Shown here one piece after another: positions 5,043 to 37,132 of a DNA stretch of 64,000 nucleotides; position 1 is the first letter of the stretch; every line of letters starts with the position of its first letter. Source of the stretch: Sulfuriferula multivorans (GTDB taxonomy: Bacteria > Pseudomonadota > Gammaproteobacteria > Burkholderiales > Sulfuriferulaceae); NCBI RefSeq assembly GCF_003851125.1, contig NZ_BGOW01000001.1:124001-188000 (forward strand). The letters run 5' to 3'. A program made the translations under genes and the position numbers. The notes beneath the pieces are model-generated. The model was not told the DNA's origin, made no database searches, and saw only the letters and a list, made by a program, of their open reading frames with translations.

Positions 5043-5078
5043 GGGGTTTATGCCCCGCGGGATTGGTGGATATGCCCC
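5043..5078. promoter_or_regulatory. Two GGGG-N6-CCCC activator sites upstream of yfdX1
   Basis: Site 1: GGGG-TTTATG-CCCC at 5043-5056. Site 2: GGTG-GATATG-CCCC at 5065-5078. They are 22 bases apart, two helical turns. Site 2 ends 52 bases before the -24 element at 5131. The same inverted repeat stands before four other sigma-54-type promoters in this window (10794, 29376, and 37050, which serves two). Interpreted as binding sites for a sigma-54 activator. Confidence 0.7.
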
Positions 5079-5130
5079 GCCTTCTTCAATAAAATCCGGG
5101 CTTAATACGCAGTTTCAACAAGTTACACTC

Positions 5131-5145
5131 TGGCACGGCAATTGT
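5131..5145 (+). promoter_or_regulatory. sigma-54 promoter of the yfdX1-kinase-regulator-CLC operon
   Basis: TGGCACG-GCAA-TTGT matches the -24/-12 consensus TGGCACG-N4-TTGC, except for the final base. It lies 40 bases before the chosen ATG at 5186, giving a leader of about 30 bases. Confidence 0.72.
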
Positions 5146-5185
5146 ATGCAAAAGGGCAAGGACGTTGTTTTTGCCGGAGAACATC

Positions 5186-6403
5186 ATGCGCACTTTTTCC
5201 TGTCGCCCGCTTATTATTACCTTGCTGTTGGGTAGTGCATTGACGCGCGCCTGGGGTGCAGAGGCTCCAGTAGTGCAGCAGATATCCGTGGTACCCAGCC
5301 CGGCTTTAAGTATTGAACAGCAACAGCGACTGTCAGATATTGCAGTCAAAGTACTGCATCAGATTGCTGCGGCACGGGAAGACATCGCTCTACGCAATGC
5401 CGCCAGTGCTCACCAGGCCCTGGACAACGCCGGCAACTTGCTCGCCAGCTTGCAAACCCGCCTGCCTGTCACACGCGTCTCCGATCACGTCTGGAATGCG
5501 CAAAAACATCAGGAATACGATAACAGTGCGCGTGTGCTGCCTGATTTGATACCGATTTACGCCAACCTGCATACGTTGCGAGACTTCATTCCGGCACAGC
5601 AGAAGCTTAAACAGCCTGCCGCCGATAAGCTGCGCGTCACGGATGCCACGCTGATTTATGCCGAGGCTGACCTGCCACTGGTGCATACGCTTCGCACCGT
5701 GGATACCGCACGTCATGCGCTGGACCAGCAGAACTGGCAACGTGCCGACCAGGCACTCAAAAATGCCGAAGACGGCGTCGTATTCATGTCGGTGAGCGTA
5801 AACGAGCCTTTCGCCGCAGGCCGCCAATCCTTGCTGCAAACCACCCGCCTGCTAGCAGCGGGTGAAACCGCCAAAGCCCGGCTCGAACTCCAACGCGCGC
5901 GCAGCTACCTGCAACGCGCCGCACAAACAACCGATAGCATTGCCAAGGACGATGCCGACAAACTGCTGCAGGATGCTGACCGGCTCGACGCGCATATCCG
6001 GAACAACGATGCCAATCTGGTCAATGACGCGCAAACCTTGTGGTACAGGACAGCTGCACTGGCTGAACGCTCCAAGGCATATCTGGGCAATGAATGGGCC
6101 AGCGTAATGCACGACCGGCCGATCAAATCCAGACTCATCGAAGCCCGCCTCGCGTTACGCGATGCGGCCATTGATCAATTTACCGCACACCAGCCAGCGG
6201 CCGCCGAGAAAGCGTTGGTGCGCGCGCAAAGCTACCTCGGCCAGGCACTGGAAATCGCACGCACCGATAACCAGCCGCAAATCGAAATACACGGTGTGCA
6301 ACAACATGTCGCCCGGCTCGCAACCGAAACTCCGGCACAACGCAACCCGGACCAGTACAGCCAGCTCGCGGGCGAACTGGGTATCCTGATCAGCCAGAGC
6401 TGA
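5186..6403 (+). CDS. YfdX-family periplasmic protein (yfdX1)
   Basis: A 405-residue protein with a signal peptide (MRTFSCRPLIITLLLGSALT, cleaved near WGA|EAP). The rest is helical and resembles YfdX: residues ~40-220 include ARVLPDLIPIYANLHTLRDF, and the later part (IKSRLIEARLALRDAAIDQF, KALVRAQSYLGQALEIA) looks like a second helical repeat, which may explain why it is about twice as long as E. coli YfdX. The ATG at 5186 is chosen over a TTG at 5165 because it follows GGAG by six bases and starts the signal peptide. YfdX proteins are tied to acid and envelope stress in enterics. It leads an operon with a kinase/regulator pair, so it may be a periplasmic partner of the sensor (inference). Confidence 0.8.
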   Translation: MRTFSCRPLIITLLLGSALTRAWGAEAPVVQQISVVPSPALSIEQQQRLSDIAVKVLHQIAAAREDIALRNAASAHQALDNAGNLLASLQTRLPVTRVSDHVWNAQKHQEYDNSARVLPDLIPIYANLHTLRDFIPAQQKLKQPAADKLRVTDATLIYAEADLPLVHTLRTVDTARHALDQQNWQRADQALKNAEDGVVFMSVSVNEPFAAGRQSLLQTTRLLAAGETAKARLELQRARSYLQRAAQTTDSIAKDDADKLLQDADRLDAHIRNNDANLVNDAQTLWYRTAALAERSKAYLGNEWASVMHDRPIKSRLIEARLALRDAAIDQFTAHQPAAAEKALVRAQSYLGQALEIARTDNQPQIEIHGVQQHVARLATETPAQRNPDQYSQLAGELGILISQS

Positions 6404-6409
6404 CATGAG

Positions 6410-7912
6410 ATGAGGCTTGCCTACCCAACAGAAACCAGTTTGAATAGCGGCCATGAAGATACTGATTCCTATCCCGTGTCGAGTGCGCTGATCCTGCGCT
6501 CATTGCGACTGCCTGCCCTGGTGCTGGGCGGCGTGGTGATCCTGGCTCTGGCACTGATGACGTTGACCGCATGGCGCGCCGAAACCCGCATCGGCACCGT
6601 GCAATTGCACATGCAGAATATTCTCGCACTGCAGACGCTCTCAATGCAGATAGAACACGACTATTTGCGCCTGGTTAATCCGCAGGCGCCGCTCCCTGCG
6701 CACATCCAGCAGGCGCTGGACAAACAACTCGCCGACATCATCGCTGCCGATCACTCGCGCGTGGCCGACACACCCGCGGTATTGAGCCAGCTACGGCAAT
6801 TGCTGGCGCGTCGCAATGCCGGCCACGATACGCTGCTCTCCACGCTGGCGCAGATCCATGACCGCATCACGCGTGAAACCAACGCCCATGCGGTACTGGT
6901 CAGCGATGTGCAACGCACCGCGCGCTTCGAATTCAATCTCGCGCTGACCCTGGTCGTGGTGCTCCCCTTGCTGGCGGTCGCCACCCTCTACCTGCTGCGC
7001 CATCGCGTGCAGTTACCGCTGCGCGACCTGAGCTGGCTGATGCAACGTTTGTCGCAACAGGATTACGCCAGCGCCCCGATTGCCCATGCCGATCCGATGA
7101 TCAAGCCGCTGCTGCTGCGTTACAACCATCTGGTGAGCCGACTGGCCGAGCTCGAAGCCGAACACCAGAACCGCGAGACCCTGCTCGAACAGCAGGTGCG
7201 CGCCGCCAGCACCACCCTGCTCAACCAGCAGCAGCATCTGGCGCAGGCGGAAAAACTGGCCAGCGTCGGCGAAGTCGCTGCCGGCATTGCGCACGAACTG
7301 CGCAACCCGCTGTCCGGCATCCAGATGGCGCTGACCAATCTGCGCCGTGAAACCGAATCGGCCGACCATGCCGAACGGCTGGATATGGTCCTGGATGAAA
7401 TCAACCGCATTACGCGCCTGCTCAATGGCCTGCTGGATCAGGCACGGCACCACCCCGCCCCGCCCAGCGAAGTGAACCTGGCCGAACTGTGCGGCGCCCT
7501 GGCCAGCCTGGTCCATTACCTGTTGCCACCCGCGATCACGCTGGTGACCGACGTCCCCGCGGATTTGAGCTGCGTGATCTCGGCCGATGGCTTGCGCCAG
7601 GCCTTGCTCAACCTGATTCTCAACGCACGCAACGCCATCGGCGAACATGCGGGAAATATCCACCTAACCGCGCAGCCTCGTGAAGACGCTATCGAAATCA
7701 GCGTCACCGACAGCGGTGGCGGCTTTTCCGATACACTGCTCAGCCACGGCCCGCGCCCGTTTATCAGCAGCCACGAGTCAGGCACCGGACTCGGGCTGGC
7801 CATCACGCGCCGTTTCGTAAATGATCTGGGCGGGCGCATTGCGCTGGACAACACGCCTGGCGGTGGCGCACGCGTCACCCTCTACCTGCCTTGTGCCTCC
7901 ACCCATGCCTGA
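6410..7912 (+). CDS. Membrane sensor histidine kinase (NtrB/ZraS-like)
   Basis: A 500-residue kinase. TM1 is at ~36-56 and TM2 at ~176-196, with a helical periplasmic domain of ~120 residues between them. A HAMP-like linker and coiled coil (~197-280) follow, then HisKA with phospho-acceptor His295 in GEVAAGIAHELRNPLSG, then the ATPase domain with N box (ALLNLILNARNAI), G1 (VTDSGGGFSD) and G2 (GTGLGLAITRRF). No PAS domain is visible. It starts six bases after yfdX1 and overlaps the regulator gene by eight bases, so the three are surely co-transcribed. Signal unknown; the neighbouring YfdX and the oxidases of the proposed regulon suggest envelope or redox stress. Confidence 0.93.
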   Translation: MRLAYPTETSLNSGHEDTDSYPVSSALILRSLRLPALVLGGVVILALALMTLTAWRAETRIGTVQLHMQNILALQTLSMQIEHDYLRLVNPQAPLPAHIQQALDKQLADIIAADHSRVADTPAVLSQLRQLLARRNAGHDTLLSTLAQIHDRITRETNAHAVLVSDVQRTARFEFNLALTLVVVLPLLAVATLYLLRHRVQLPLRDLSWLMQRLSQQDYASAPIAHADPMIKPLLLRYNHLVSRLAELEAEHQNRETLLEQQVRAASTTLLNQQQHLAQAEKLASVGEVAAGIAHELRNPLSGIQMALTNLRRETESADHAERLDMVLDEINRITRLLNGLLDQARHHPAPPSEVNLAELCGALASLVHYLLPPAITLVTDVPADLSCVISADGLRQALLNLILNARNAIGEHAGNIHLTAQPREDAIEISVTDSGGGFSDTLLSHGPRPFISSHESGTGLGLAITRRFVNDLGGRIALDNTPGGGARVTLYLPCASTHA

Positions 7913-9314
7913 CAGCCTCCTCATCATTGAAGACGAATCCCTGCTCGGTGCTGAACTACAGCGCCATTTCCGACGTGAAGGCTGGGAGGTCAGCTGGGCC
8001 CGCAGCATCGCCGAAGCCGAATCCCTGCTGTTCGGCGAAACTCTTACACCGCTGATCGTGCTCTCCGACATGAGCCTGCCGGATGGCAATGGCCTGGACT
8101 TGCTCGAATCCGTGCGCCAGAAAAATCTGGGCGGCGAGTGGCTGTTCCTCACCGGCTACGGCACCGTGCCGGATTCAGTGCGCGCGCTGAAACTGGGTGC
8201 ACTGGATTTCCTGAGCAAACCCTGCGATCTGGCGCGCCTCGACCTGATCATCGCCGCCGCCACGCGCAGCGGCCGCGCCCAGCGGCGCATTGCCGAACAC
8301 TCGGCGGCGGCGGCACGGCGCTACAGCGTGGACAGCTTCAGCGGCAACAGCAGCGCCTCGAACGCGGCGCGCCAGATGCTGACGCGGCTGGCCAGCGTAC
8401 CCTATTCCGCACTGCTCATCAGCGGCGAAACCGGTACCGGCAAAGGTCTGGCAGCACGCATCCTGCATCACGGCGGGATGCGCGCCAATGCCCCGCTGGT
8501 GGAGGTCAATTGCGCCGCACTGCCGCATGAACTGATCGAATCCGAGCTGTTCGGCCACGAACCCGGCGCGTTTACCGGCGCCAAAACCCGGCGGCGCGGC
8601 CTGTTCGAGCAGGCCGATGGCGGCACCCTGTTTCTGGATGAGGTCGGTGAGCTGGCACCCGATTTGCAGGCCAAGCTGCTCAAGGCGATCGAGGACAAGG
8701 TCATCCGCCGCGTGGGCGGCGACCGCGAAATCGCACTCGACGTGCAGCTCATCGCGGCCACCAATCAGGATCTGGTTGAAGCTGTCGCCGCCCGGCGTTT
8801 CCGCGAAGACTTCTATCATCGCCTGTCGGTATTCCGCCTGGAATTGCCGCCATTGCGCCAGCGCCGCGAGGACATTCGTGCCCTGGTGCAGCGCTTTGTT
8901 GCTGAATTCAACCTCAAGGCCGGCAAAAAAATACGCCATATCCGCGACAGCTCCTGGCTTCTGCTTGAGCAGCACGACTGGCCGGGCAACGTACGCGAAC
9001 TGCACAATGCCATCGAGCGCGCCGTGCTGCTCACCCCAGGCGATGCCGACACGCTGCAGGAGGAATGGCTGCAACTCACTCCCGGTCGCATCCTGCCCGC
9101 GCCACCGCAAGCCAGCAGTGAAACTTTATTGTGCCTGCCGCTGGACGGCAGCATGGCGCTCGACGACATGGATCGTCACATCATCCAGACCACCCTGGTA
9201 CGCTACGCCTACAATGTCACTGCCGCCGCGCGCGCGCTTGGCACCACACGCGAAACACTGCGTTACCGGGTGGATAAATACGGCCTCAAACCAGAAGCCG
9301 GCAAGGATGGCTGA
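7905..9314 (+). CDS. sigma-54-dependent response regulator (NtrC/ZraR family)
   Basis: A 469-residue activator. The receiver domain (1-115) has Glu9/Asp10, phospho-acceptor Asp55 (LSDMSLPDGNG) and Lys105. The AAA+ domain (~145-375) has Walker A GETGTGKG (174-181), the sigma-54 contact loop GAFTGA (221-226) and Walker B TLFLDEVGEL. The C-terminal Fis-type helix-turn-helix is around NVTAAARALGTTRETLRYRV. The intact GAFTGA loop shows that it activates sigma-54 polymerase. The start at 7905 (MPDSLLIIED) overlaps the kinase stop; an upstream in-frame ATG at 7821 lies inside the kinase and is rejected. It is the best candidate to bind the GGGG-N6-CCCC sites. Confidence 0.95.
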   Translation: MPDSLLIIEDESLLGAELQRHFRREGWEVSWARSIAEAESLLFGETLTPLIVLSDMSLPDGNGLDLLESVRQKNLGGEWLFLTGYGTVPDSVRALKLGALDFLSKPCDLARLDLIIAAATRSGRAQRRIAEHSAAAARRYSVDSFSGNSSASNAARQMLTRLASVPYSALLISGETGTGKGLAARILHHGGMRANAPLVEVNCAALPHELIESELFGHEPGAFTGAKTRRRGLFEQADGGTLFLDEVGELAPDLQAKLLKAIEDKVIRRVGGDREIALDVQLIAATNQDLVEAVAARRFREDFYHRLSVFRLELPPLRQRREDIRALVQRFVAEFNLKAGKKIRHIRDSSWLLLEQHDWPGNVRELHNAIERAVLLTPGDADTLQEEWLQLTPGRILPAPPQASSETLLCLPLDGSMALDDMDRHIIQTTLVRYAYNVTAAARALGTTRETLRYRVDKYGLKPEAGKDG

Positions 9315-9353: not shown

Positions 9354-10721
9354 ATGCAAGGTAAATCCATAATCCATGCCATCACCCGGCTCAAGCTCTT
9401 CCTGCGCGGGCACGAGCAGGAAGAAGCACGCCGCATGCTGCTGTGGGCTGGCGTGGTCGGCATACTCGGTGCGCTGGCGACCGTGCTGTTCCGCGAGGGC
9501 ATCCAGCTCGTTCAATTGTTGTTCACGCGCCATTCCGGCAGCCTGGTGCACATCGCCGAAGGGCTGACCTGGTGGCAGCGCCTGCTGATTCCGCTGGCTG
9601 GGGGCTTGCTGGCAGGGGCGATTTTGCAATTCGGCTTGAAATGGGTAGGCAGCGCGCGGACCACCGACTACATGGAAGCCATCGTCGCGGGCGACGGCGT
9701 CATCGGTGTCCGCGCCAGCCTGGTGAAAAGCCTGTCGTCACTGTTCACCGTCGGCTCCGGCGGCTCGATCGGACGCGAGGGTGCGATGGTGCAGCTTGCC
9801 GCCATGGTGGGATCAGCGGCAGGCCATTGGGTGCACCTGCCTCAGCACAAGCAACGCCTGCTGGTGGCGTGCGGAGCCGCGGCAGGTCTGGCTGCGGCTT
9901 ATAACGCACCCATCGCCGGCGCACTGTTCGTGGCTGAAATCGTGATAGGCACCATCGCCATGGACAGCTTTGGCCCGCTCATCGTCGCCTCGGTTGTCTC
10001 CAATACCACCATCCACCATTTCCTCGGTTACGCGCCGGTGTACCAGATCCCGGCGTTTCAGTTTCTATCCAACTGGGAGTTGATTTTTTACGCCGCACTG
10101 GGCTATCTGCTGGGGCATCTCGCGCCCTCTTTCATCACCCTGCTGGATCGCAGCGAAAGCCTGTTCGCGCGCACCAGGCTGCCTCTCACCCTGAAGCTGG
10201 GGCTGGGCGGCCTGATGGTGGGCGCGATTTCCACGTTCTATCCGCAAGTGTGGGGCAACGGTTACAGTGTGGTGAACAGCCTGCTGCATCAGAACATCGC
10301 CTGGCAGCTGCTCGCCCTGGTGCTGATTTTCAAGATCATCGCCACGGCAGCGACGATCGGCTCCGGCGCAGTGGGCGGGGTATTCACCCCCACCCTGTTC
10401 ATTGGCGCGGCATTCGGCTCGCTGTTCGGCACCGCGCTGGGCGCGATTTTTCCCGGTATGATCTCGCCCTCCAGCGCCTACGCCATCGTCGGCATGGGCG
10501 CGTTTCTGGCCGCCGCCACCCATGCGCCGCTGATGGCGATCCTGATGATTTTCGAGATGACCCTGGATTACAAAATTACCCTGCCACTGATGCTGGCGTG
10601 TGTGATCGCCTACACCGTCGCGCGCGACCACCGCGGCAGCGAGTCGATCTACGCCGGCGCACTACGGCGCAAGCGTGGACTCCATGCCGCAGAAATAGCG
10701 CCCGTCAGCAAATCGCCTTGA
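9354..10721 (+). CDS. CLC-family chloride channel/transporter (ClcB-like)
   Basis: A 455-residue membrane protein of CLC type. The core shows GSGGSIGREGAMVQ (external gating Glu in GREG), AGLAAAYNAPIAGALFVAE and GSGAVGGVFTPTLFIG, which are the selectivity-filter loops. There are no CBS domains. Compared with E. coli ClcA, the second Glu of the EE pair in LFIIEEM (the internal proton Glu203) seems to be Ile here (LFVAEIV), which would favour channel-like behaviour over H+/Cl- exchange. It lies 39 bases after the regulator on the same strand, probably the last gene of the yfdX1 operon, and could serve charge balance in acid stress. Confidence 0.9.
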   Translation: MQGKSIIHAITRLKLFLRGHEQEEARRMLLWAGVVGILGALATVLFREGIQLVQLLFTRHSGSLVHIAEGLTWWQRLLIPLAGGLLAGAILQFGLKWVGSARTTDYMEAIVAGDGVIGVRASLVKSLSSLFTVGSGGSIGREGAMVQLAAMVGSAAGHWVHLPQHKQRLLVACGAAAGLAAAYNAPIAGALFVAEIVIGTIAMDSFGPLIVASVVSNTTIHHFLGYAPVYQIPAFQFLSNWELIFYAALGYLLGHLAPSFITLLDRSESLFARTRLPLTLKLGLGGLMVGAISTFYPQVWGNGYSVVNSLLHQNIAWQLLALVLIFKIIATAATIGSGAVGGVFTPTLFIGAAFGSLFGTALGAIFPGMISPSSAYAIVGMGAFLAAATHAPLMAILMIFEMTLDYKITLPLMLACVIAYTVARDHRGSESIYAGALRRKRGLHAAEIAPVSKSP

Positions 10722-10761: not shown

Positions 10762-10807
10762 GGGGGATATCAGCCTAATTTCTTTCATGTTCCGGGGGAT
10801 ATCCCCC
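10762..10807. promoter_or_regulatory. GGGG-N6-CCCC activator site (with a half site) upstream of the ccoQ-like gene
   Basis: GGGG-GATATC-CCCC at 10794-10807 is the core of a perfect 18-base palindrome (10792-10809). A half site GGGG-GATATC-AGCC lies at 10762-10775, 32 bases upstream (three helical turns). The full site ends 53 bases before the -24 element. No T-tract follows, so it is not an intrinsic terminator of the CLC gene. Confidence 0.7.
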
Positions 10808-10860: not shown

Positions 10861-10875
10861 TGGCATGGATGCTGC
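10861..10875 (+). promoter_or_regulatory. sigma-54 promoter of the ccoQ-like / Rieske gene group
   Basis: TGGCATG-GATG-CTGC keeps the essential GG and GC with exactly ten bases between them. It is 67 bases before the ATG at 10943, giving a leader of about 55 bases. Longer reading frames that start before this promoter are therefore unlikely. Confidence 0.68.
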
Positions 10876-10942: not shown

Positions 10943-11083
10943 ATGCATGCAAGCGGATATGTAATTTATACCGTGATTCTGTTGCTGGCGTTTGTGAGCA
11001 TAGTGATCTGGGTATTCAGCAAAAAACGCAAGGCGCGCTTCAGCAAGGACGCCGATATCCCCTTTGAGGAAGAGCAGGAATAA
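10943..11083 (+). CDS. CcoQ/FixQ-like small membrane subunit (orphan)
   Basis: A 46-residue peptide: one membrane helix (residues ~6-25) followed by FSKKRKARFSKDADIPFEEE. This basic-then-acidic ending closely resembles CcoQ of cbb3 oxidase, where RRRKxxFxxAAxLPF is typical. No ccoN, ccoO or ccoP is in the window, so it is an orphan copy. ATG at 10943 is preceded by AAGGAG with ideal spacing; the in-frame ATG at 10787 lies before the predicted promoter. It may help assemble or stabilise an oxidase; that role is inferred. Confidence 0.7.
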   Translation: MHASGYVIYTVILLLAFVSIVIWVFSKKRKARFSKDADIPFEEEQE

Positions 11084-11218: not shown

Positions 11219-11614
11219 ATGAAATCAAATCTGCTCGCAGCCGTCCTCGCCACCTCGATTATTTCCTTGACCGGCGCCGCCTATGCCGCCCCCGTGGCAG
11301 GTTCTGAAACCGTAGGCATCACCGTCCAGGAGGCAAGCATCGCCGCCGCGGGCTGGAGTGCACAGAAACAAATCCTGCACAAACCGGTCTATAACGATGA
11401 CAAGAAGAAAATCGGCGTCATTGAAGACATCATCGTGTCGCCGGGAAATTCGGTGTCCTACGCAGTTGTCGGCGTTGGCGGCTTCCTCGGCATTGACCGT
11501 CATGATGTGTTGATCCCGTTCAACCATTTCAAGGCCGAAGGACATCGATACTTGCTGCCGGGCGCGAACAAGGCCATGCTCAAGTCCTTGCCTGCATTCA
11601 AATACACAAAATGA
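11219..11614 (+). CDS. Secreted PRC-barrel domain protein
   Basis: A 131-residue protein with a signal peptide (MKSNLLAAVLATSIISLTGA, cut after YAA). A PRC-barrel is at about residues 50-115: KPVYNDDKKKIGVIEDIIVS, YAVVGVGGFLGIDRHDVLIP. PRC barrels bind partner proteins or ligands, and exported forms are common near envelope stress genes. SD AGGAG is five bases before the ATG. It is 135 bases after the ccoQ-like gene and in the same direction; probably in the same unit. Confidence 0.8.
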   Translation: MKSNLLAAVLATSIISLTGAAYAAPVAGSETVGITVQEASIAAAGWSAQKQILHKPVYNDDKKKIGVIEDIIVSPGNSVSYAVVGVGGFLGIDRHDVLIPFNHFKAEGHRYLLPGANKAMLKSLPAFKYTK

Positions 11615-11683
11615 TGCAGGTCATGGCGGGTGGCCTGCGCACCCCTTTTTCTCACACTATTGGTTCAAACCAAGGAGCGTGTC

Positions 11684-12058
11684 ATGAGGCGTCGTATTTT
11701 CCCGCTGCTCGTCGCAACCACCCTGACATTGATGCTGGCGAGTTGTGCCAGTCTGCCGCCGCCCGCGCCGGTCACGGTTGCAGAGGTGGTTCGCCTCAGT
11801 CATGAAGGCGACCCTCCCGATCAAATCATCCAGCGCATGCGTGACGCTGGCACCGTCTATCGCCTCAAGGCCAGTCAGTTCGCGCGCCTGCACCAGCAGG
11901 GCGTATCCGATGAGGTGCTGGATTACATGCAGCATACTTACCTTGAAGCCGTGCGCCGCGATCAGCACATGCAAGACTGGAATAGCTGGTGGCCGGCTCC
12001 GGATGGTTATTTCTACGGCCGTTGTTACTACGGCGCCTGGCCTTACCGCTGCTATTGA
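11684..12058 (+). CDS. Lipoprotein of unknown function
   Basis: A 124-residue protein with a lipoprotein signal (MRRRIFPLLVATTLTLMLAS|CAS, lipobox LAS-C). The mature part holds a short helical domain (VTVAEVVRLSHEGDPPDQII ... LHQQGVSDEVLDYMQ), like the SHOCT-style or DUF-type repeats that sense helix partners, and an aromatic C terminus rich in Trp and Tyr with two Cys (YFYGRCYYGAWPYRCY). The start at 11684 follows AAGGAG; a start at 11630 is rejected. Function unknown. Confidence 0.72.
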   Translation: MRRRIFPLLVATTLTLMLASCASLPPPAPVTVAEVVRLSHEGDPPDQIIQRMRDAGTVYRLKASQFARLHQQGVSDEVLDYMQHTYLEAVRRDQHMQDWNSWWPAPDGYFYGRCYYGAWPYRCY

Positions 12059-12133: not shown

Positions 12134-12436
12134 ATGAGCCAGTTCAAGAACCTTTCCTCGCATATTTTGCAGGCTTCCGCCTCAATGGTCGGCGTTTGCA
12201 TGATGATTCTCAGCATCGTCAAACTCATCCATATGGGTGGGCCCATGAGCAGACTGGTGGACAAAATACTCGGCTTTGACAATGTAGTGTTTCTGTTTAG
12301 CGCCATCCTGTCCTATGCCTCGATGCGCTACGAGCGGCGGGCTGTGCATCTGGAGAATCTGGCTGACACCATGTTTATCGTCGGACTGATTTGCATGACG
12401 GTAGCCTCCTTTGTACTTTCTTTCGAGATCCTCTAA
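12134..12436 (+). CDS. Small three-helix membrane protein of unknown function
   Basis: A 100-residue hydrophobic protein with three likely membrane helices (about 12-34, 47-64, 78-98) and a basic/acidic loop SMRYERRAVHLENLAD between the second and third. No family recognised. The stop lies two bases before the Rieske gene, so the two are translated together; it may be an accessory membrane anchor for that protein. Confidence 0.62.
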   Translation: MSQFKNLSSHILQASASMVGVCMMILSIVKLIHMGGPMSRLVDKILGFDNVVFLFSAILSYASMRYERRAVHLENLADTMFIVGLICMTVASFVLSFEIL

Positions 12437-12438
12437 AA

Positions 12439-13035
12439 ATGGTCGAGTCGACAGAATTCAACTTTAACCGCAGGCGCTTCCTGATTGCCGCCACCACTGC
12501 GGTGGCGGGCGCAGGGTTCGTGATGACCGCTTATCCGTTCGTGATGAGCATGATGCCGAGCCAGAGAGCGCTGGCCGAAGGCGGTCCGGTCGATGCGGAC
12601 ATCCGCAAGATTGAACCGGGCATGCTGGTAACCTTCACATGGCGCAAACAGCCGGTATGGGTTCTGCATCGCACCCAGCCCATGCTCGACCGGTTGGGCA
12701 AGCATGATCAGTTACTGCTTGATCCGCTGTCACGACAGCCCCAACAACCCGTTTATTGTCAGAACGCAACCCGTTCGATCAAGCCGGAATACTTTGTCGC
12801 AGTCGGTATCTGTACACACCTCGGTTGCGTTCCAACCTACCGCAGGGAAGTGGGAGCACCGGATATAGGAGCGAATTGGCCGGGTGGTTTTCTATGCCCT
12901 TGCCACGGTTCCAAATACGATCTGGCGGGTCGGGTATTCAAGGACGTGCCGGCACCACTCAACCTGGAAATTCCTCAACATACCTACCTGAGCGAGACCC
13001 TGATATTGATCGGTGCAGACAAGAAAACAGGCTAG
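12439..13035 (+). CDS. Rieske 2Fe-2S protein (PetA-like, orphan)
   Basis: A 198-residue Rieske protein. The N terminus has a twin-arginine motif (RRRFLIAATT) and a membrane helix that would remain as an anchor. Box 1 CTHLGC is at 125-130 and box 2 CPCHGS at 153-158: Cys125, His127, Cys153 and His156 are the cluster ligands, and Cys130/Cys155 the disulfide. This is the bc1/b6f type. No cytochrome b or c1 gene follows, which is unusual because petA normally leads petABC. It may be an extra Rieske for a bc1 complex encoded elsewhere, made under the sigma-54 regulon. Confidence 0.9.
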   Translation: MVESTEFNFNRRRFLIAATTAVAGAGFVMTAYPFVMSMMPSQRALAEGGPVDADIRKIEPGMLVTFTWRKQPVWVLHRTQPMLDRLGKHDQLLLDPLSRQPQQPVYCQNATRSIKPEYFVAVGICTHLGCVPTYRREVGAPDIGANWPGGFLCPCHGSKYDLAGRVFKDVPAPLNLEIPQHTYLSETLILIGADKKTG

Positions 13036-29344: not shown

Positions 29345-29389
29345 GGTTGAGATGCCCCAATGACCCTTCTGGTCCGGGGCTTATACCCC
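29345..29389. promoter_or_regulatory. GGGG-N6-CCCC activator site (with a half site) upstream of cyoABCD
   Basis: Full site GGGG-CTTATA-CCCC at 29376-29389, and a half site GGTT-GAGATG-CCCC at 29345-29358, 31 bases upstream (three turns). The full site ends 54 bases before the -24 element at 29444. Together with copy 1 of the ACGAAA repeat this explains most of the 434-base gap 29130-29563. Confidence 0.7.
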
Positions 29390-29443: not shown

Positions 29444-29458
29444 TGGCACAGTCGATGC
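29444..29458 (+). promoter_or_regulatory. sigma-54 promoter of cyoABCD
   Basis: TGGCACA-GTCG-ATGC, with GG and GC exactly ten bases apart. It gives a leader of about 95 bases before the cyoA ATG at 29564. Confidence 0.7.
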
Positions 29459-29563: not shown

Positions 29564-30481
29564 ATGAGGTATTTTGTGCCAGGAAAAAAGCACCTCAGGC
29601 TACTCGGTTACTGCTCGCTCATCCCATTGCTGTTTCTGGGCGGTTGTAGCGTATCCGGTTTCCCGCTGCTCGACCCGCAGGGGCCGATCGGTCACAGCGA
29701 ACTCAATCTGATCGTAACCGCCTTTCTCATCATGCTGATCCCGGTGCTGCCGGTGATAGGCATGACCTTCTGGTTTGCCTGGCGTTATCGCGCCTCGCGC
29801 CGGGAAACTGCGCCCCAGCCCGGTTGGTCCGAACATACAATCGAGCTGGTGGTATGGACGGTGCCGACCATCATCGTGATTGCGCTGGGCGTGCTGACCT
29901 GGGTCACCACGCACCGGCTCGACCCCTACAAATCCATCGCTTCATCCGCAAAACCGATCCAGATCGAGGCGATTGCGTTGAACTGGAAATGGCTGTTCAT
30001 TTACCCGGACGAGCATATCGCAACGGTCAACCAGCTGGTCATTCCCGTCAACGCACCGGTGAGTTTCCGGCTCACCTCCGATACAGTGATGGCCTCGCTG
30101 TTCATCCCGCGTCTGGGCAGTCAGGTCTACGCGATGGCGGGCATGCAAACCCGTCTGCATCTGCTGGCAAGCCAGCCGGGCAACTACCGCGGCATGAACT
30201 CGCAATTCAGCGGTGCCGGTTTTCCGGGCATGCACTTCAGGGTCATTGCAACTTCACAGGGCGATTACCAGGCCTGGCTCAAACAGGTCAGGCAAACCGG
30301 TAGCGCACTGAACCTGGCACGCTTCAAGCAATTGGCGCAACCCAGCGCCCATTCGCCGGTGAGTTATTTCGCATCGGTCCAGCCCCCTGATCTGTTCGAC
30401 CAGGTTATGCGCACATTCAAGCCGATGCAGCCAGGCGCGATGGCGCCCATGCAGCCGGCGTCAAGCCATCAGGAGACATAA
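29564..30481 (+). CDS. cyoA: CyoA, cytochrome bo3 ubiquinol oxidase subunit II
   Basis: A 305-residue subunit with a lipoprotein signal (LIPLLFLGG|CSVSGFPLLDPQG), two membrane helices (~45-67, ~88-110) and a periplasmic cupredoxin domain without CuA ligands (IEAIALNWKWLFIYPDEHIA), which marks a quinol rather than cytochrome c oxidase. The start at 29564 is chosen because it lies downstream of the predicted promoter and gives a proper lipoprotein signal; the open frame reaches back to 29360. First gene of cyoABCD; cyoB follows after three bases. Confidence 0.93.
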   Translation: MRYFVPGKKHLRLLGYCSLIPLLFLGGCSVSGFPLLDPQGPIGHSELNLIVTAFLIMLIPVLPVIGMTFWFAWRYRASRRETAPQPGWSEHTIELVVWTVPTIIVIALGVLTWVTTHRLDPYKSIASSAKPIQIEAIALNWKWLFIYPDEHIATVNQLVIPVNAPVSFRLTSDTVMASLFIPRLGSQVYAMAGMQTRLHLLASQPGNYRGMNSQFSGAGFPGMHFRVIATSQGDYQAWLKQVRQTGSALNLARFKQLAQPSAHSPVSYFASVQPPDLFDQVMRTFKPMQPGAMAPMQPASSHQET

Positions 30482-30484
30482 GGC

Positions 30485-32485
30485 ATGTTCGGAAAACTGT
30501 CACTGTCAGCGATCCCCTTTCATGTACCCATCATCATGGGATCGGTCAGCGTGGTATTGCTGGGCGCGGCGCTGATCCTGGCGCTCATCACCTATTACCG
30601 CAAGTGGGGCTACTTGTGGCATGAATGGCTGACCAGCGTCGATCATAAAAGAATCGGCGTCATGTACATCATTCTGGCGCTCGTCATGCTGCTGCGCGGC
30701 TTCTCTGACGCCATCCTGATGCGCTCGCAGCAGGCCGTCGCACTGGGCTCCGATCACGGCTTCCTGCCGCCCGGCCACTACGACCAGATTTTCAGCGCGC
30801 ACGGCACCATCATGATTTTTTTCATGGCCATGCCGTTCCTGGTCGGCCTGATGAATGTGGTCGTGCCGTTGCAGATCGGCGCGCGCGACGTCGCCTTCCC
30901 GTTCATGAATGCAGTCAGCCTGTGGCTCACGGTATTCAGCGCCGGGCTGGTCATGCTCTCGCTCGGCGTGGGCAATTTCTCCCACGCCGGATGGACCGGC
31001 TACCCGCCCCTCAGCGGCCTGCATTACAGTCCGGGCACCGGTGTCGATTACTGGATCTGGAGCATCCAGTTGAGCGGGCTGGGGTCGCTGATGACAGGCA
31101 TCAATTTCCTGGTGACCATACTCAAAATGCGCGCTCCCGGCATGACGCTGATGCGCATGCCGATCTTCACCTGGACCGCATTGTGCACCAACGTGCTGAT
31201 GATTCTCGCCTTCCCGGTATTGACCGTGACGCTGGCGTTGCTGGCGCTGGATCGTTACCTGGGCATGCATTTTTTTACCAACGCTCTCGGCGGCAACATG
31301 ATGATGTACCTCAATCTGTTCTGGATCTGGGGGCATCCGGAAGTCTACATCCTGGTGCTGCCCGCGTTCGGCGTGTTTTCCGAAGTGGTGGCCACACTGT
31401 GCGGCAAGCGGCTATTCGGCTACACCTCGATGATCTGGGCGACCATCGCCATCACCGTGCTGTCCTTCACGGTGTGGCTGCACCATTTTTTCACCATGGG
31501 ATCGAGCGCAGACGTGAATGCCTTCTTCGGCATCATGACCATGATTATCGCGGTACCTACCGGGGTCAAGGTGTTCAACTGGCTGTTCACCATGTATCAG
31601 GGGCGGGTGCGTTTCGACACGCCGATGCTGTGGACGCTGGCCTTCATGGTGACGTTCGTGCTGGGCGGCATGACCGGCGTGATGCTGGCGATTCCGGGTG
31701 CCGATTACGTGCTGCATAACACCGAGTTCCTGGTCGCCCACTTTCACAACATGCTGATTCCCGGTGCTCTGTTCGGCTACTTTGCCGGCTATGCCTTCTG
31801 GTTTCCCAAGGTGTTCGGTTTTGCGCTGAACGAGAAATGGGGCAAGCGTGCATTCTGGATGTGGGCGAGCGGCTTTTACCTCGCCTTCATGCCGCTCTAC
31901 GTGCTCGGTTTTCTGGGCATGCCGCGTCGTCTGGAGTACTACACCAACCCTGCCTGGCATCCCTGGCTGGAAATTGCCGCCGTGGGTGCTGCCTTCATCC
32001 TGATCGGCATCGTGTTTCAGGTCATCCAGCTGGTGGTGAGCATCCGGGCGCGCGAAACAACCCGCGACCTGAGCGGCGATTACTGGCGCGACGGTCGCAC
32101 CCTGGAATGGTCAACTGCCTCGCCGCCGCCGCTCTACAATTTCGCGCAACACCCTGTTGTGCAGTCGCGCGATGCATTCATGGCGATGAAGCAAGCCGGC
32201 AGCACCGATCAACGCCCGGACACGTATCACGCCATTCTGATGCCGAAGAACACGCCTGCCGGTTTCATTGTCGGCGTGCTGGCGTTCTTTACCGGCTTTG
32301 GCTTGATATGGCATATCTGGTGGCTGGCCGCAGGCGCGGCGCTGGGCATCCTCGCCACACTCATTTTCCGGATGATGCAGGACGAGGTGGAGTATTTGAT
32401 TCCCGCAGAGGAAGTGCAGCGGATTGAAGCCGCGCGCATATTCCGGCATGCAGACGCCGATTCGTATCAGCAGGTGCCAGCATGA
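30485..32485 (+). CDS. cyoB: CyoB, cytochrome bo3 ubiquinol oxidase subunit I
   Basis: A 666-residue haem-copper oxidase, full length. Quinone-site residues are in [14 protein letters not shown] (Arg and Asp as in E. coli Arg71/Asp75). The D-channel Asp is in [11 protein letters not shown]. CuB ligand and cross-linked Tyr are in [13 protein letters not shown], the two further CuB His in LHHFF, and haem His in [13 protein letters not shown]. It reduces oxygen to water and pumps protons. Overlaps cyoC by four bases. Confidence 0.97.
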
Positions 32486-33093
32486 TGTCCGCCGCATTAA
32501 CCCGCGACACCGACCAGACTGCGGCGCACCATGCCCAGGCCGTGAGTAACAGCGTTTTCGGATTCTGGGTGTATGTGATGAGCGACGCCATCCTGTTTGC
32601 CATACTGTTCGCCACCTTTGCCGTGTTGCGCCACAACTACGCGGGCGGCCCCACCGGCGCGACCTTGTTCGACCTGCCCAAGGTGTTCGGCGAAACCCTG
32701 CTCCTGCTTACCAGCAGCGTGACCTATGGCCTGGCGGTGCTGGCGATGAACAGGAAAAACAGAATCCAGGTGCTGGGCTGGCTGTTGATCACCTTCCTGC
32801 TTGGGCTGGGTTTCATCGGCATGGAAGTCAGCGAGTTCCAGCGCATGATCCTGACGGGTGCCGGACCCGATCGAAGCGGTTTTCTGTCCGCATTTTTTAC
32901 CCTGGTCGGCACTCACGGCCTGCACGTCAGCTTCGGCCTGATCGGCATGCTGGTGATGATGGTTCAGGTCATGCACAAGGGATTAACCGTCCCGGTTCAG
33001 TCCAGGCTGATCCGCCTGAGCATGTTCTGGCACTTCCTGGACATCGTGTGGATCGGCGTCTTCAGCGTGGTCTACTTGATGGGAGTGATGTAA
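32482..33093 (+). CDS. cyoC: CyoC, cytochrome bo3 ubiquinol oxidase subunit III
   Basis: A 203-residue subunit with five predicted helices, including [19 protein letters not shown] and [15 protein letters not shown], the conserved pieces of subunit III. Translation is coupled by overlap to cyoB, and cyoD begins directly after the stop. It stabilises subunit I. Confidence 0.95.
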
Positions 33094-33426
33094 ATGGCAC
33101 ATGAGTCGATTGATCTGCCCGGTGTCAGCCATGCCCGCTTGCGCACCTATGTCGTGGGTTTTGCGCTGTCCATCGTGCTCACTATCATCCCGTTCGGCTT
33201 GGTCGTATTCGGTCTCGACCGCTTTCCCCACACCGCCATACTGACTGTCATCGCACTCGCAGCCATCGTCCAGATTGTGGTGCAACTCCACTACTTCCTG
33301 CACCTGGATCGCACCTCGGACCAGAGCTGGAACCTGCTCGCCATTGTGTTCACCGTACTCATCATCGCCATCATGCTGCTTGGCACGCTGTGGATCATGT
33401 TCGATCTCCATGCACGCATGATGTAA
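33094..33426 (+). CDS. cyoD: CyoD, cytochrome bo3 ubiquinol oxidase subunit IV
   Basis: A 110-residue protein with three helices; LRTYVVGFALSIVLTIIPFG and VVQLHYFLHLDR are typical of CyoD. It completes the oxidase. cyoE (haem O synthase), often next in the operon, is not present here and must be elsewhere. Confidence 0.93.
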   Translation: MAHESIDLPGVSHARLRTYVVGFALSIVLTIIPFGLVVFGLDRFPHTAILTVIALAAIVQIVVQLHYFLHLDRTSDQSWNLLAIVFTVLIIAIMLLGTLWIMFDLHARMM

Positions 33427-34280: not shown

Positions 34281-35300
34281 TCATTCTTCGCCTTCATCGT
34301 CGCCGTAAGCCGTCCCATCCACCTTACCGCTAAACACCAGATACTGATAGCCGTTGTAGAACAGCATGATCGGTATCAGCGGCAGGATGCCGACCAGCAT
34401 GAACAACTGCGTACCGGAGGAAGCGGCGGCAGCGTTCCAGGTCAACGTGGGAGTGAGGGCGTAGGGATACAGGCTCGCGACCAAGCCGACAAACGACGCC
34501 ACAAACAGCAGCAGCGTGCCCAGGAATGGCCAGTACTCATGCCGTTTGAGATAGGCCCATAGCGTCAGCAGCGCGGCAAATATGGCTACCCCGCCTGCCA
34601 GCGCATAAGGCAGCGCCGAGCTGCCGGACCAGCGGCTGGCAATATGGGGGTTGTGCAACGGCGTCAACGCCAGCACCAGCGCACCCGTCGCCAAGGTACC
34701 CAGCAACAGCCAGAAGCCACGTCGATAGGCGCGATCCTGCATCTCGCCGGTGGATTTGAGTATCAGCCAGCCCGCCCCCATCAGCGCATAACCCAGCACC
34801 ACGCCCAATGCGGTCAGCAACGTGAAGGGTGTCATCCAGTGCCAGCCGCTGCCCACATAGTTACCCGCCAGGGTCGGCCAGCCCTGAATCAGCGCGCCCA
34901 GTATCATTCCCTGGCTGATGGCTGCACCCAGGCTGCCTACGCCAAAGGTCACGTTCCACAGCCACTTGCGCCTGCTGGCATGGCGGAATTCGAACGCCAC
35001 CCCGCGCATGATCAGCGCGAACAGCATCACCGTGACCGGGATATACAAGCCCTGCAACAAGGCGGCGTAGACCGGCGGAAATGCGCCGAACAGCACGCCG
35101 CCCAACAGCACCAGCCAGGTTTCGTTGGCGTCCCACACGCTGGACAGGCTCGCCATCATCAAGCCGCGGCGGTCTTCATCGCAGGCCGCCAGCGACAGGA
35201 TGCCCACGCCCAGATCAAAGCCGTCCAGCACCACATACAGCAACAGCGACAGCCCGGCTACGCCGATCCAGAATGCCACCAGGAAACTTTGCATGTCCAT
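34281..35300 (-). CDS. cydB: Cytochrome bd-type quinol oxidase subunit II (CydB/CioB), first copy
   Basis: A 339-residue CydB: GLSLLLYVVLDGFDLGVGIL at the start, SVWDANETWLVLLGGVLFGAFP (N-terminal half signature) and MRGVAFEFRHASRRKWLWN. Eight to nine helices. It pairs with CydA to form a non-pumping, high-affinity oxidase. The ATG at 35300 has AAGGA upstream; the frame back to 35381 runs through a repeat and is rejected. Separated from cydA by the 233-base gap that holds an ACGAAA repeat, unusual for this pair. Confidence 0.93.
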   Translation of the reverse strand: MDMQSFLVAFWIGVAGLSLLLYVVLDGFDLGVGILSLAACDEDRRGLMMASLSSVWDANETWLVLLGGVLFGAFPPVYAALLQGLYIPVTVMLFALIMRGVAFEFRHASRRKWLWNVTFGVGSLGAAISQGMILGALIQGWPTLAGNYVGSGWHWMTPFTLLTALGVVLGYALMGAGWLILKSTGEMQDRAYRRGFWLLLGTLATGALVLALTPLHNPHIASRWSGSSALPYALAGGVAIFAALLTLWAYLKRHEYWPFLGTLLLFVASFVGLVASLYPYALTPTLTWNAAAASSGTQLFMLVGILPLIPIMLFYNGYQYLVFSGKVDGTAYGDDEGEE

Positions 35301-35337
35301 ACAGCGTTTGTCCTTGAATGATCCAAAAAAAGCGGTG

Positions 35338-35507
35338 GTCCACGAAACACACGAAAAGCACGAAATGGGGTATGCAGGCATTTCGCCGTAAGGCGAAAGC
35401 TCGCAAAATATTCAACGAAATAAAAAGTAGTAAATCATCACCAGAGAGTGAACGACCTAATCAATGCCGCATTGTTTTATTTCGTGTCTTTTGTGTCTTT
35501 CGTGGAT
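35338..35507. repeat. ACGAAA-type inverted-arm repeat, copy 2
   Basis: Arms GTCCACGAAACACACGAAAA and a right arm ending TTTCGTGGAT. Inside is TTTCGCC-GTAA-GGCGAAA (35381-35398), a seven-pair hairpin with a GNRA-type loop, followed by GCTCGCAAAA, then ATCATCACC ... GTGAACGACC. The order hairpin, CTCGCAAAA, CATCACC/GTGA is the same as in the ACAGAGA-type copies, so the two families are probably related. It interrupts cydA-cydB. Confidence 0.75.
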
Positions 35508-35533
35508 AAATCGCCGTTTTCAGGATGGTTTGA

Positions 35534-36925
35534 TCAGATGCGCCGATCTTGCCAGCCGTGCTGGGGAACTGCTGGCGGCTCCAGCGTCAGGTCCGGACCT
35601 TTGCGCAGCCAGCGTCGCGCAAAAATAAAAAACGCTATCGCCAGCACGATGTAGAGCACGGTGTATCCGGCCATGCTGAACATGACGCTGGACGCGGGGA
35701 GTGGCGACGCCCCCTCGCTGGTGCGCAGCAAACCATAGACCAGCCACGGCTGACGTCCGACCTCGCGCACGGTCCAGCCCAGTTCCACCGCGACATAGCC
35801 CAGCGGCACCGCCCACAGCCAGCCTTTGAGCAGCCACGGGCGTGACTGCCAGGCCGCATCCTGCCAGCCGTGGCGCCATGCGTGCCACAGACTCAGCAGC
35901 ATCAATGCGAAGAAATACAAGCCGATCACCACCATCAAGCGGAAGCTGTAAAACAACAGCGGCAATGCGGGCGGGCGATCCTGCGGCGCAATATCGAGCA
36001 GACCTTTCACCTGGCCGTCCCAGGTGCTGGTTGCCAGCAGGCTCAACGCATTGGGAATCTTGATCTCCCAGTCATTGGCGCCTTTTTTTGCGTCAGGCCA
36101 GGCGGCAACCGCCCACGCCGCACCCTGTCCAACCGGATTGGTGTGCCAATGGCCTTCGATCGCCGCGCCCTTGGCTGGCTGGTAAACAAATACGGATTTA
36201 CCCGAACCGTCGCCCAGGTAAATTTGCAAAGGGGTAATCAGCACCGCCGCCAGCACCGCCATCTTGAAGCTCTTCATGAAAAACGCCGGATTGCGGTTTT
36301 TCAGAACATACCAGGCCGACACACCGCCCACCACGAAGCAGCCGGTTTCCAGCGCGGCCACCCACATGTGGCTCACCCCCCACACCATATCCGGGTTGAA
36401 CATGGCAGCCCAGAAATCGGTGACTACAAAGCGTCCGTTCACCACCGATCCGCCCGCCGGGGTCTGCATCCAGGAATTCGCCATGACGATCCACAATGCC
36501 GACAGGCTGGCCCCGACAGCCACCATCAGCGTGGCAAAGAAATGCACCGCGCGCGGCACGCGCTGCCAGCCCAGCAGCATGATGCTGAGGAAGCCCGCCT
36601 CCAGCATGAATGCCATGGCGCCTTCAAAACCCAGCGCTGCGCCGAAAAAATCCCCGGCGAAGCGTGAAAACTCCGCCCAGTTGGTGCCGAATTCAAATTC
36701 CAGCGGCAGGCCGGTGACGACCCCCACGCTGAAATTGAGCACAAACAACTTTGCCCAGAAACGCGCATGGCGATAGTAGTCAACATCGCCGGTCTTGAGC
36801 CACAGTGCTTCGATCACCACCAGAAAAAACGACAGCCCGATGGTGAGCACCGGCCACACAATATGAAATAGCGCAGTCAAGGCAAACTGGGCACGGGATA
36901 AATCGGTAACGAGCATGGTTGCCAT
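35534..36925 (-). CDS. cydA: Cytochrome bd-type quinol oxidase subunit I (CydA/CioA), first copy
   Basis: A 463-residue CydA. It has SRAQFALTALFHIVWP (haem b595 His region), GFEGAMAFMLEAGFLSIML, ANSWMQTPAGG, FYSFRLMVVIG (haem b558 Met) and GRQPWLVYG. It is shorter than E. coli CydA (522) because the Q loop is short, which marks the cyanide-insensitive CioA type. The ATG at 36925 is preferred to a TTG at 36943. A sigma-54 type promoter (36993-37007) and a shared GGGG-N6-CCCC site (37050) lie upstream. Confidence 0.93.
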   Translation of the reverse strand: MATMLVTDLSRAQFALTALFHIVWPVLTIGLSFFLVVIEALWLKTGDVDYYRHARFWAKLFVLNFSVGVVTGLPLEFEFGTNWAEFSRFAGDFFGAALGFEGAMAFMLEAGFLSIMLLGWQRVPRAVHFFATLMVAVGASLSALWIVMANSWMQTPAGGSVVNGRFVVTDFWAAMFNPDMVWGVSHMWVAALETGCFVVGGVSAWYVLKNRNPAFFMKSFKMAVLAAVLITPLQIYLGDGSGKSVFVYQPAKGAAIEGHWHTNPVGQGAAWAVAAWPDAKKGANDWEIKIPNALSLLATSTWDGQVKGLLDIAPQDRPPALPLLFYSFRLMVVIGLYFFALMLLSLWHAWRHGWQDAAWQSRPWLLKGWLWAVPLGYVAVELGWTVREVGRQPWLVYGLLRTSEGASPLPASSVMFSMAGYTVLYIVLAIAFFIFARRWLRKGPDLTLEPPAVPQHGWQDRRI

Positions 36926-36992
36926 GAAGGAGTCGAGTAGCAATCAGAAGGTGCTTTATAGTAATTCATCGACGGAATAGCAAACCCTAAGT

Positions 36993-37007
36993 TCAATTGA
37001 CGTGCCA
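36993..37007 (-). promoter_or_regulatory. sigma-54 promoter of the first cydAB pair
   Basis: Minus-strand TGGCACG-TCAA-TTGA. The -24 part is a full match and the -12 is TTGA instead of TTGC. It lies 67 bases before the cydA ATG. The shared activator site begins 42 bases upstream of -24, one helical turn closer than at the other promoters. Confidence 0.6.
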
Positions 37008-37049
37008 ACTGCTCTTGGGTCACAACCCCCATGGCTCTGACCTTGCAAT

Positions 37050-37063
37050 GGGGCATATCCCCC
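37050..37063. promoter_or_regulatory. GGGG-N6-CCCC activator site shared by divergent cydA and yfdX2
   Basis: GGGG-CATATC-CCCC. It stands between two sigma-54-like promoters that point away from each other: cydAB on the minus strand (42-base gap) and yfdX2 on the plus strand (54-base gap). Confidence 0.7.
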
Positions 37064-37117
37064 GCCAGACCCTCTGCGCTCCTGTGGCTTTTTCAAAAAA
37101 TCAATTACTTATGTTTC

Positions 37118-37132
37118 TGGCATGAGGTATGC
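37118..37132 (+). promoter_or_regulatory. sigma-54 promoter of yfdX2-yflT
   Basis: TGGCATG-AGGT-ATGC with GG and GC ten bases apart, 57 bases before the yfdX2 ATG at 37190. Confidence 0.68.

Follow-up and report, generated by a model that had tools for sequence, protein, structure and literature searches.

A probable two-component sigma-54 regulon with tandem operator copies before YfdX, CLC and CcoQ-PRC genes in Sulfuriferula multivorans

We analysed a 64,000-nucleotide stretch (the window) of the genome of Sulfuriferula multivorans (3,619,383 bases in 87 contigs) in which a membrane sensor histidine kinase (HK) and an NtrC-type response regulator – a sigma-54 activator, or enhancer binding protein (EBP) – are encoded between a YfdX gene and a CLC gene. 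These genes and their promoters probably belong to a local, autoregulated two-component sigma-54 regulon of the kind governed by a Sinorhizobium medicae activator that we take to be EbpA, with acid or a related proton or envelope stress as its most likely signal. The core of this regulon is well supported: an operator site and a -24/-12 element are kept in three congeners before both the EBP operon and the CcoQ-PRC unit, and the core accordingly comprises YfdX1-HK-EBP-CLC plus CcoQ-PRC and the genes that follow it. The sites before cyo, which encodes a bo3-type quinol oxidase, and before YfdX2-YflT are confirmed in this genome only, and the bd-type oxidase genes cydAB are doubtful members.

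Relatives were taken from the 18 genomes of the family, all of one genus (this genome and 17 congeners); the three congeners that keep the core are referred to as G002, G005 and G014. A class-level set comprised 369 genomes, this one included, and the Pfam scan covered 28 open reading frames (orfs) of the window. Distances are given as bases from an operator site to the -24 box, the sites having been picked by score and not by phase, and each gene set is presumed to form one transcript.

Core units and operator arrangement

The first core unit encodes the two regulatory proteins and has two operator copies before its promoter:

5043..5056, + strand: distal operator copy GGGGTTTATGCCCC, exact palindrome, 74 from -24; same place in G002 (74), diverged in G014 and G005 (75)
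5065..5078, + strand: proximal operator copy GGTGGATATGCCCC, imperfect, 52 from -24; same in G002 (52), weak in G014 and G005 (53, scores 8 and 9 of 12)
5131..5145, + strand: -24/-12 element TGGCACGGCAATTGT of the unit; identical in G002, TGGCATGGTATGTGT in G014 and G005
5186..6403, + strand: YfdX1 (PF10938, E 2.9e-12), signal-like sequence at its ATG
6410..7912, + strand: membrane sensor HK (PF00512/PF02518), two hydrophobic segments by hydropathy
7905..9314, + strand: EBP (PF00072, PF00158, PF02954), REC-AAA+-Fis helix-turn-helix (HTH) architecture with GAFTGA
9354..10721, + strand: CLC family chloride channel/antiporter (PF00654, E 9.6e-95); G014 and G005 each have an ortholog, while none was found at the locus in G002

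The second core unit starts just behind the CLC gene:

10762..10775, + strand: distal operator copy GGGGGATATCAGCC, imperfect, 85 from -24; identical in G002 at 85
10794..10807, + strand: proximal operator copy GGGGGATATCCCCC, 53 from -24
10861..10875, + strand: -24/-12 element TGGCATGGATGCTGC of the CcoQ-PRC unit; counterparts in G002, G005 and G014
10943..11083, + strand: CcoQ/FixQ-like membrane protein of 46 amino acids (PF05545, 35.4 bits, cut-off 29); orthologs in G005 and G014, truncated in G002
11219..11614, + strand: PRC-barrel protein with signal-like start (PF05239); orthologs in G002 (89%), G005 (72%) and G014 (68%)
11630..12058, + strand: small lipoprotein-like orf, start uncertain, no Pfam match; orthologs in G002, G005 and G014
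12134..12436, + strand: membrane protein of 100 amino acids; orthologs in G002, G005 and G014
12391..13035, + strand: Rieske iron-sulfur protein, start uncertain (TIGR01416, 209 bits, cut-off 97.4); present in G002, no room for it in G014
12756..15482, + strand: GH15/glucodextranase-like protein, start uncertain (PF09137, PF00723); follows the CcoQ-PRC unit in G002 and G014

The G005 contig ends ahead of the GH15 gene. In G002 the CcoQ gene (L062:14292-14425) has a truncated start, while the promoter, both operator copies and the downstream PRC gene are retained.

Sigma-54 itself is encoded by a single rpoN gene in the genome (TIGR02395, 477.7 bits, above cut-off). The EBP scores below the curated NCBIfam cut-off in each of the families shown (best 25 of 72), named equivalogs such as NtrC, AtoC, ZraR, PrsR, NorR and PspF among them, and its best scores in that comparison are 352 for AtoC (cut-off 714) and 314 for PrsR (cut-off 503).

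A preliminary description of the window had placed a GGGG-N6-CCCC palindrome before each of five -24/-12 strings, at gaps of 52, 53, 54, 54 and 42 bases, and all of these strings, palindromes and gaps were recovered where it put them. Some of this needs qualifying. The copy 52 bases from the 5131 element is the imperfect GGTGGATATGCCCC, the exact palindrome lying at 74, so that this promoter has a tandem pair; the other three forward promoters have weaker second copies, at 85, 85 and 87, that the description had overlooked. All four forward promoters are thus preceded by two operator copies, at 52–54 and 74–87 bases from the -24 box. The second copies lie at 74 (YfdX1, exact), 85 (CcoQ), 85 (Cyo) and 87 (YfdX2), the last three being imperfect; their scores were reached by 0, 2.05, 2.8 and 0.5%, respectively, of 2000 shuffles of the upstream stretch, so that these three are individually weak. 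The full arrangement of GG and GC ten bases apart is present in three of the five -24/-12 elements (10861, 29444 and 37118), the -12 part deviating at 5131 (GT) and at minus 37007 (GA).

Across the cluster in the genus the distances fall at 42, 52–54, 64, 74–75 and 85–87, in steps of about one helical turn. For seven primary distances R(10.5) is 0.92 (simulated p=0.0015, best period 10.7), a small set listed by hand in which 42 and one 54 are the same YfdX2 palindrome seen from two sides, the 42 being measured toward the doubtful cyd promoter. Two dyad sites in helical phase upstream of a promoter are what is expected of an NtrC-type tandem enhancer.

It is operator and promoter string in combination that set these places apart. 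GGGG-N6-CCCC is in moderate excess, at five exact places in the window (5043, 10377, 10794, 29376 and 37050) against 1.48 expected, with at least five in 1 of 100 shuffles; the one at 10377 lies inside the CLC gene, with only a weak -24/-12-like string 105 bases on. The -24/-12-like strings by themselves show no clear excess (134 in the window, 119 expected, 134 being reached in 13 of 100 shuffles). A composite built on the preliminary pattern (GGGGN6CCCC-N35-65-TGGCAN7TGC, with the reversed pattern as control) is found at three places in the whole genome, all within the window, and its control nowhere. The tighter palindrome GGGGNWTATNCCCC, a consensus partly fitted on the window's own sites, has four exact occurrences across the 3.62 Mb genome; each of them lies in the window and ahead of a -24/-12 element. 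With one mismatch it gives 28 rows, 10 in the window and 18 outside (15 places); the reversed control gives 14, so the outside sites are at background level, and none of the 15 places has a -24/-12 string scoring at least 8 within 20–119 bases. The genome-wide scan that the preliminary description had proposed, run in part with these exact and one-mismatch patterns, thus places the composite in the window only, and the regulon survived it. Among the 369 class genomes the palindrome composite has four matches here and one elsewhere (G197), and the reversed control has one; in G197 the -24 string falls within the beginning of an orf for a small secreted protein, and this match is taken as chance.

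Units of this species and conservation in congeners

Further into the window, operator copies precede cyo and YfdX2-YflT, the proximal copy of the latter facing cydA as well:

29345..29358, + strand: distal operator copy GGTTGAGATGCCCC, weak, 85 from -24
29376..29389, + strand: proximal operator copy GGGGCTTATACCCC, 54 from -24
29444..29458, + strand: -24/-12 element TGGCACAGTCGATGC of the cyo unit
29564..33426, + strand: cyoABCD, bo3-type quinol oxidase; CyoB over cut-off, CyoA start at an internal ATG behind the promoter
34281..36943, - strand: cydB and cydA, bd-type quinol oxidase (doubtful member)
36993..37007, - strand: possible -24/-12 TGGCACGTCAATTGA of cydAB, weak, 42 from the shared palindrome
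37017..37030, + strand: distal operator copy GGGTCACAACCCCC, imperfect, 87 from -24
37050..37063, + strand: proximal operator copy GGGGCATATCCCCC, 54 from -24; faces cydA too
37118..37132, + strand: -24/-12 element TGGCATGAGGTATGC of the YfdX2-YflT unit
37190..37909, + strand: YfdX2 (PF10938, E 2.2e-15), signal-like sequence at its ATG; ortholog in G005 (47%)
37954..38481, + strand: YflT/general-stress-like protein (PF11181, 24 bits, below the cut-off of 26.2)

For CyoA and YfdX2 the longest orf would include the promoter, and the signal-like sequences start behind it at the internal ATGs 29564 and 37190. An Eco29kI-family restriction endonuclease gene (38740-39387) lies directly behind YfdX2-YflT.

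The EBP has an ortholog in four of the 18 genomes – this one, G002 (92%), G014 (78%) and G005 (78%) – and, among the matches listed, the others in these genomes reach at most 49%, over part of the protein. Exactly the same four genomes have YfdX-family matches, a coincidence that corresponds to one split in 3060 on the assumption of independent genomes, which these are not. PRC orthologs were found in four of eight tested genomes, again the EBP-bearing four, two further weak matches (30–31%) being other proteins. Upstream of the HK-EBP operon, sites at 74–75 and 52–53 are present in each of the four genomes, even though in G014 and G005 the letters of this promoter have strongly diverged (GGTTGATATCCCCC and GGTTCATATCCACC at 75, weaker sites at 53). 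Before CcoQ there is a site at 53–54 and a second at 85 in this genome and G002; in G005 and G014 the site lies at 64, with a half-site (score 8) at 86 in G014 only.

The cyd promoter fares differently. Its string at minus 37007 has TTGA in place of TTGC at its end, and neither G002 nor G005 keeps it ahead of cydA: in G002 cydAB has a palindrome and lacks the -24/-12 element, and in G005 cydA (96%) is without the operator, the likeness to a -24/-12 element being limited to an imperfect string, TGGCATGGGCGATGA, some 225 bases upstream. Read by eye, TTTGCW-N18-TATAAA stands before cydA in both this genome and G002, and cyd may therefore have an ordinary promoter. The G005 CydA (L158, G005:C134) is 96% identical, against 78% for the EBP, which hints at patchy transfer of parts of the region. 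A second cydA (49356-50816, minus strand), 54% identical to the first, has no operator or good -24/-12 match at its locus.

Of the five units that the preliminary description joined under a shared operator, the YfdX1-HK-EBP-CLC and CcoQ-PRC units are borne out by four genomes, and conservation of sites in relatives, a comparison it had suggested, holds for these two promoters. Membership of cyo and YfdX2-YflT is supported by this genome's own sites, and the relatives give no confirmation; the bd oxidase as a firm member is not upheld, its -24/-12 string being imperfect and its promoter not kept in two relatives that retain cydA. The naming of the EBP at 7905-9314 as the activator agrees with its intact GAFTGA and with the co-occurrence of its ortholog and YfdX-family matches in four of the 18 genomes.

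Distant activators and the Sinorhizobium medicae lpiA locus

Among named genomes the nearest EBPs are 57–63% identical and come mostly from methanotrophs, as judged from the best 80 of 195 matches, in which records near this genome may be left out. Seventeen of these that were aligned have a similar HTH with nearly the same recognition helix. An order-wide search at E 1e-120 found no such EBP outside this genome in 80 genomes (three of them of its own genus, with at most 20 candidates scored per genome).

The corresponding 80 HK-EBP loci (L067-L146) have operator-like 14-mers about twice as often as the reversed control: 106 against 59 at a score of at least 10 and six against one at a score of at least 11, palindromes being counted on both strands; no consistent gene context was seen. 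Operators before strict sigma-54 strings are not above control in these loci. With this strict scan at control level, no composite in 13 genomes and mild enrichment only (both detailed below), an operator in loci of the methanotroph type is not claimed. L067 (63% EBP) is a single case: at 7980-8090 GGTGGTGCATTACCACC lies roughly 65 bases upstream of TGGCTCGCCAATTGC, and a small orf whose start is signal-like and the HK-EBP pair come after them. Homologs (45–47%) of the 100-amino-acid membrane protein of the CcoQ-PRC unit are found upstream of the homologous HK-EBP pair in five of the 80 loci (L105, L115, L123, L131 and L139).

The only close EBP on a plasmid is 56% identical over 462 amino acids and is encoded on pSymA of S. 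medicae (13 records, the next at about 40%); the 57–63% homologs are closer to the EBP studied here. For a match in S. fredii the record is without annotation, and PRC homologs on Burkholderiales plasmids gave one neighbourhood, with no EBP or YfdX among the genes listed in plasmid gene tables that are incomplete, and one unannotated record. The S. medicae EBP gene adjoins lpiA, fsrR, tcrA and tcsA, annotated as acid-inducible or acid-responsive, and its HTH segment TRETLRYR is identical to that of the EBP here. Before lpiA there is a -24/-12 string, TGGCACACTGTGTGC, with TGGTTGATATCCACT at 52 (3194) and the weaker TGGTGGATTAGCCCT at 74, the same two distances as at the YfdX1 promoter. When a matrix made from the sites of the genus alone was run over the 17.4 kb of this locus (L169), its four best places were the site at 52 before lpiA and the following three:

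7901 of L169: site 100 bases before the EBP start, with no -24/-12 found there
9423 of L169: site TGGTGGATATCCACC just behind the EBP gene, 52 before a -24/-12
10411 of L169: site 64 before the -24/-12 of a DUF1003 gene

A membrane protein orf and the DUF1003 gene (L169:9423-10546), both preceded by operator-like sites and -24/-12 strings, are possible further targets of that EBP. The apparent likeness of the locus is carried by positions and not by matrix scores, which are weak evidence by themselves.

In the literature lpiA is described as highly activated by acid, and it is said to improve survival under lethal acid conditions. PMC9048898 implicates fsrR, tcrA and tcsA in its acid induction and cites Tian et al. 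2017 for RpoN and a 'novel enhancer binding protein' in acid activation in Ensifer/Sinorhizobium medicae. The lpiA-adjacent EBP system is probably this published one. The EBP gene of L169 presumably is the one named EbpA. The 2017 work of Tian and colleagues is also said to have mapped an RpoN start for lpiA.

Mechanism, alternatives and known systems

In the proposed circuit the membrane kinase (6410-7912) would sense an envelope signal and phosphorylate the response regulator (7905-9314), two dimers of which would bind the two tandem operator copies (by eye TGGKGNATATNCMCCA; GGGGNATATNCCCC in this genome) on one face of the DNA, with predicted operator centres about 59–61 and 81–94 bases upstream of the -24 box. 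Its AAA+ GAFTGA module would then remodel RpoN-RNA polymerase at the -24/-12 element. The first target would be the operon YfdX1-HK-EBP-CLC, which includes the kinase and activator themselves, so that the circuit would be autoregulated; the second core target would be CcoQ-PRC-lipoprotein-membrane protein-(Rieske)-GH15. The cyo and YfdX2-YflT units, which also have the sites, would be additional targets in this species. Acid or proton/envelope stress is the most likely signal, though less certain than the circuit; it fits YfdX (by analogy with Klebsiella), CLC and the lpiA relative.

The analysis shows the sites, their phasing and conservation, the co-occurrence, the presence of RpoN and the domain content; binding, phosphotransfer, activation, autoregulation and the signal are inferred from these, the signal through homology. 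A number of observations weigh against this interpretation. Within the genus, the first composite has four matches in the 18 genomes (three here, one in G005) and the reversed control three (G004, G008 and G017); with the control nearly as frequent, a single match means little without gene context, and the one in G005 counts only because it lies before the CcoQ-PRC orthologs. The gene at the place of YfdX1 in G014 and G005 aligns only over its C-terminal half (43–50%), and the YfdX-family matches of these two genomes are on other contigs: that of G005 is 47% identical to YfdX2 and is followed by a YflT piece, and that of G014, a 28% relative, only just passes the cut-off and has no better site than a match of score 9, 84 bases ahead of a string that apparently falls within the gene itself. 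In both, the sigma-54 contact loop reads GAFTSA (GAFTGA here and in G002), although the promoter sites are kept. The cyo and YfdX2 sites are not confirmed in relatives, CLC, cyo and YfdX2 being absent from the G002 locus and the G005 contig ending inside YfdX2. Farther away, the GGGG form of the composite (the TGGT form was not scanned) is found in none of 13 genomes with 57–63% EBPs (13 of the 80 loci), and a relaxed matrix over the 80 loci and L169 gives 13 sites before sigma-54-like strings against 5.6 at score 11, a mild enrichment in which the S. medicae sites are included in both matrix and count. At L169 the scores do not rise above random sequence: the best, 16.5, falls short of the highest among 40 random controls (17.8), and the three that follow (9.7–10.5) are below the mean control maximum of 11.0. 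The kinase is only 27% identical to TcsA over 246 amino acids.

The same regulon might instead respond to a respiratory signal – redox state, lack of oxygen or a failing proton motive force, comparable to the Psp response – an alternative that we consider unlikely while giving it real weight. Two quinol oxidases and CcoQ-like and Rieske proteins are encoded under or near the sites, but conservation is poorest for the oxidases (cyo is missing from the G002 locus, and the cyd promoter is lacking in G002 and G005), the most conserved members, CLC, PRC and GH15, include no respiratory enzyme, even if CcoQ is likewise conserved, and the site of the S. medicae relative precedes an acid-induced gene. 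It is less probable again that the palindrome is bound by some other regulator, a repressor or another EBP, and that the neighbouring EBP acts elsewhere. Ownership of the operator is deduced from linkage in a genome where the EBP query has 34 matches, a good number of which are different EBPs, and the 13 genomes without the GGGG composite would fit such a reading; yet the EBP and YfdX-family matches share the same four of 18 genomes, a site precedes the EBP's own operon in all four, and apparently related sites surround the 56% homolog in an alphaproteobacterium. A repressor, moreover, would not need helical phasing at 42–87 bases.

That the promoters are alike through recent copying of one cassette, or by chance, with no regulatory meaning, appears very improbable. 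The consensus was recognised after the fact, and one-mismatch palindromes outside the window are about as frequent as the reversed control (18 rows and 14). Against this, comparison by eye shows no clear resemblance among the spacers from site to -24 box, in contrast to the preserved site and distance, no further composite copies exist in 3.6 Mb, and G014 and G005 keep sites at the same places with different letters. We retain the EbpA-like, acid- or envelope-responsive regulon as the probable reading. Somewhat short of an even chance, in our estimate, is the wider proposal that EbpA-like activators are a widespread, unrecognised acid/envelope-stress branch of sigma-54 control with one ancestral tandem phased operator, TGGKGNATATNCMCCA, and lineage-specific effectors, namely lysyl-phosphatidylglycerol genes in rhizobia and YfdX/CLC/respiratory genes here.

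The preliminary description knew of no regulon joining these genes. In the titles and abstract starts of open-licence literature we likewise found no description of this regulon, as far as work joining YfdX with sigma-54, RpoN or PRC-barrel proteins, or sigma-54 enhancer binding with quinol oxidases, is concerned; the related lpiA system does seem to have been described. In our reading the regulon is new and belongs to an EbpA-like sigma-54 activator, with an operator not seen described before and a probable link to one studied acid-response activator. For a sigma-54 regulon not characterised so far, this provides a defined operator, a regulator and a list of targets, and it would connect CLC and YfdX, a periplasmic acid-stress chaperone in Klebsiella, with sigma-54 control.

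Classical NtrC-type enhancers, such as those of glnA and psp, have tandem dimer sites on one helical face upstream of a -24/-12 promoter; the arrangement here is the same, with other operator letters and with sites lying fairly near the promoter. In Klebsiella, according to PMC6394985, YfdX aids survival at pH 2.5 and has chaperone activity. The YfdX proteins of Enterobacteriaceae controlled by EvgA/RcsB share family and acid stress with those here (PMC6394985, PMC6339873); in the available parts of these sources that control is not described as sigma-54 dependent, whereas here sigma-54 and an NtrC-type activator are indicated. The tLST/LHR stress island (yfdX1, yfdX2, hdeD, clpK and others) also combines two yfdX genes in one stress locus, as far as the available part of PMC8290217 describes it, but its clpK, small heat shock proteins, kefB and trx are not among the 28 Pfam-scanned orfs, no search aimed at these island genes having been made. 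The closest known systems also include the S. medicae lpiA system, whose 56% identical EBP has the same recognition segment and where an apparently related pair of operators stands 52 and 74 bases upstream of a -24/-12 element of lpiA. In that system fsrR, tcrA and tcsA are implicated in the acid induction (PMC9048898), and lysyl-phosphatidylglycerol is what the target produces and handles; in the present genome another kinase is encoded with the EBP, and YfdX, CLC, CcoQ-PRC, GH15 and cyo would be the targets. Operator letters and distances would link this gene set to the acid response of a legume symbiont, making the operator of the activator family directly testable.

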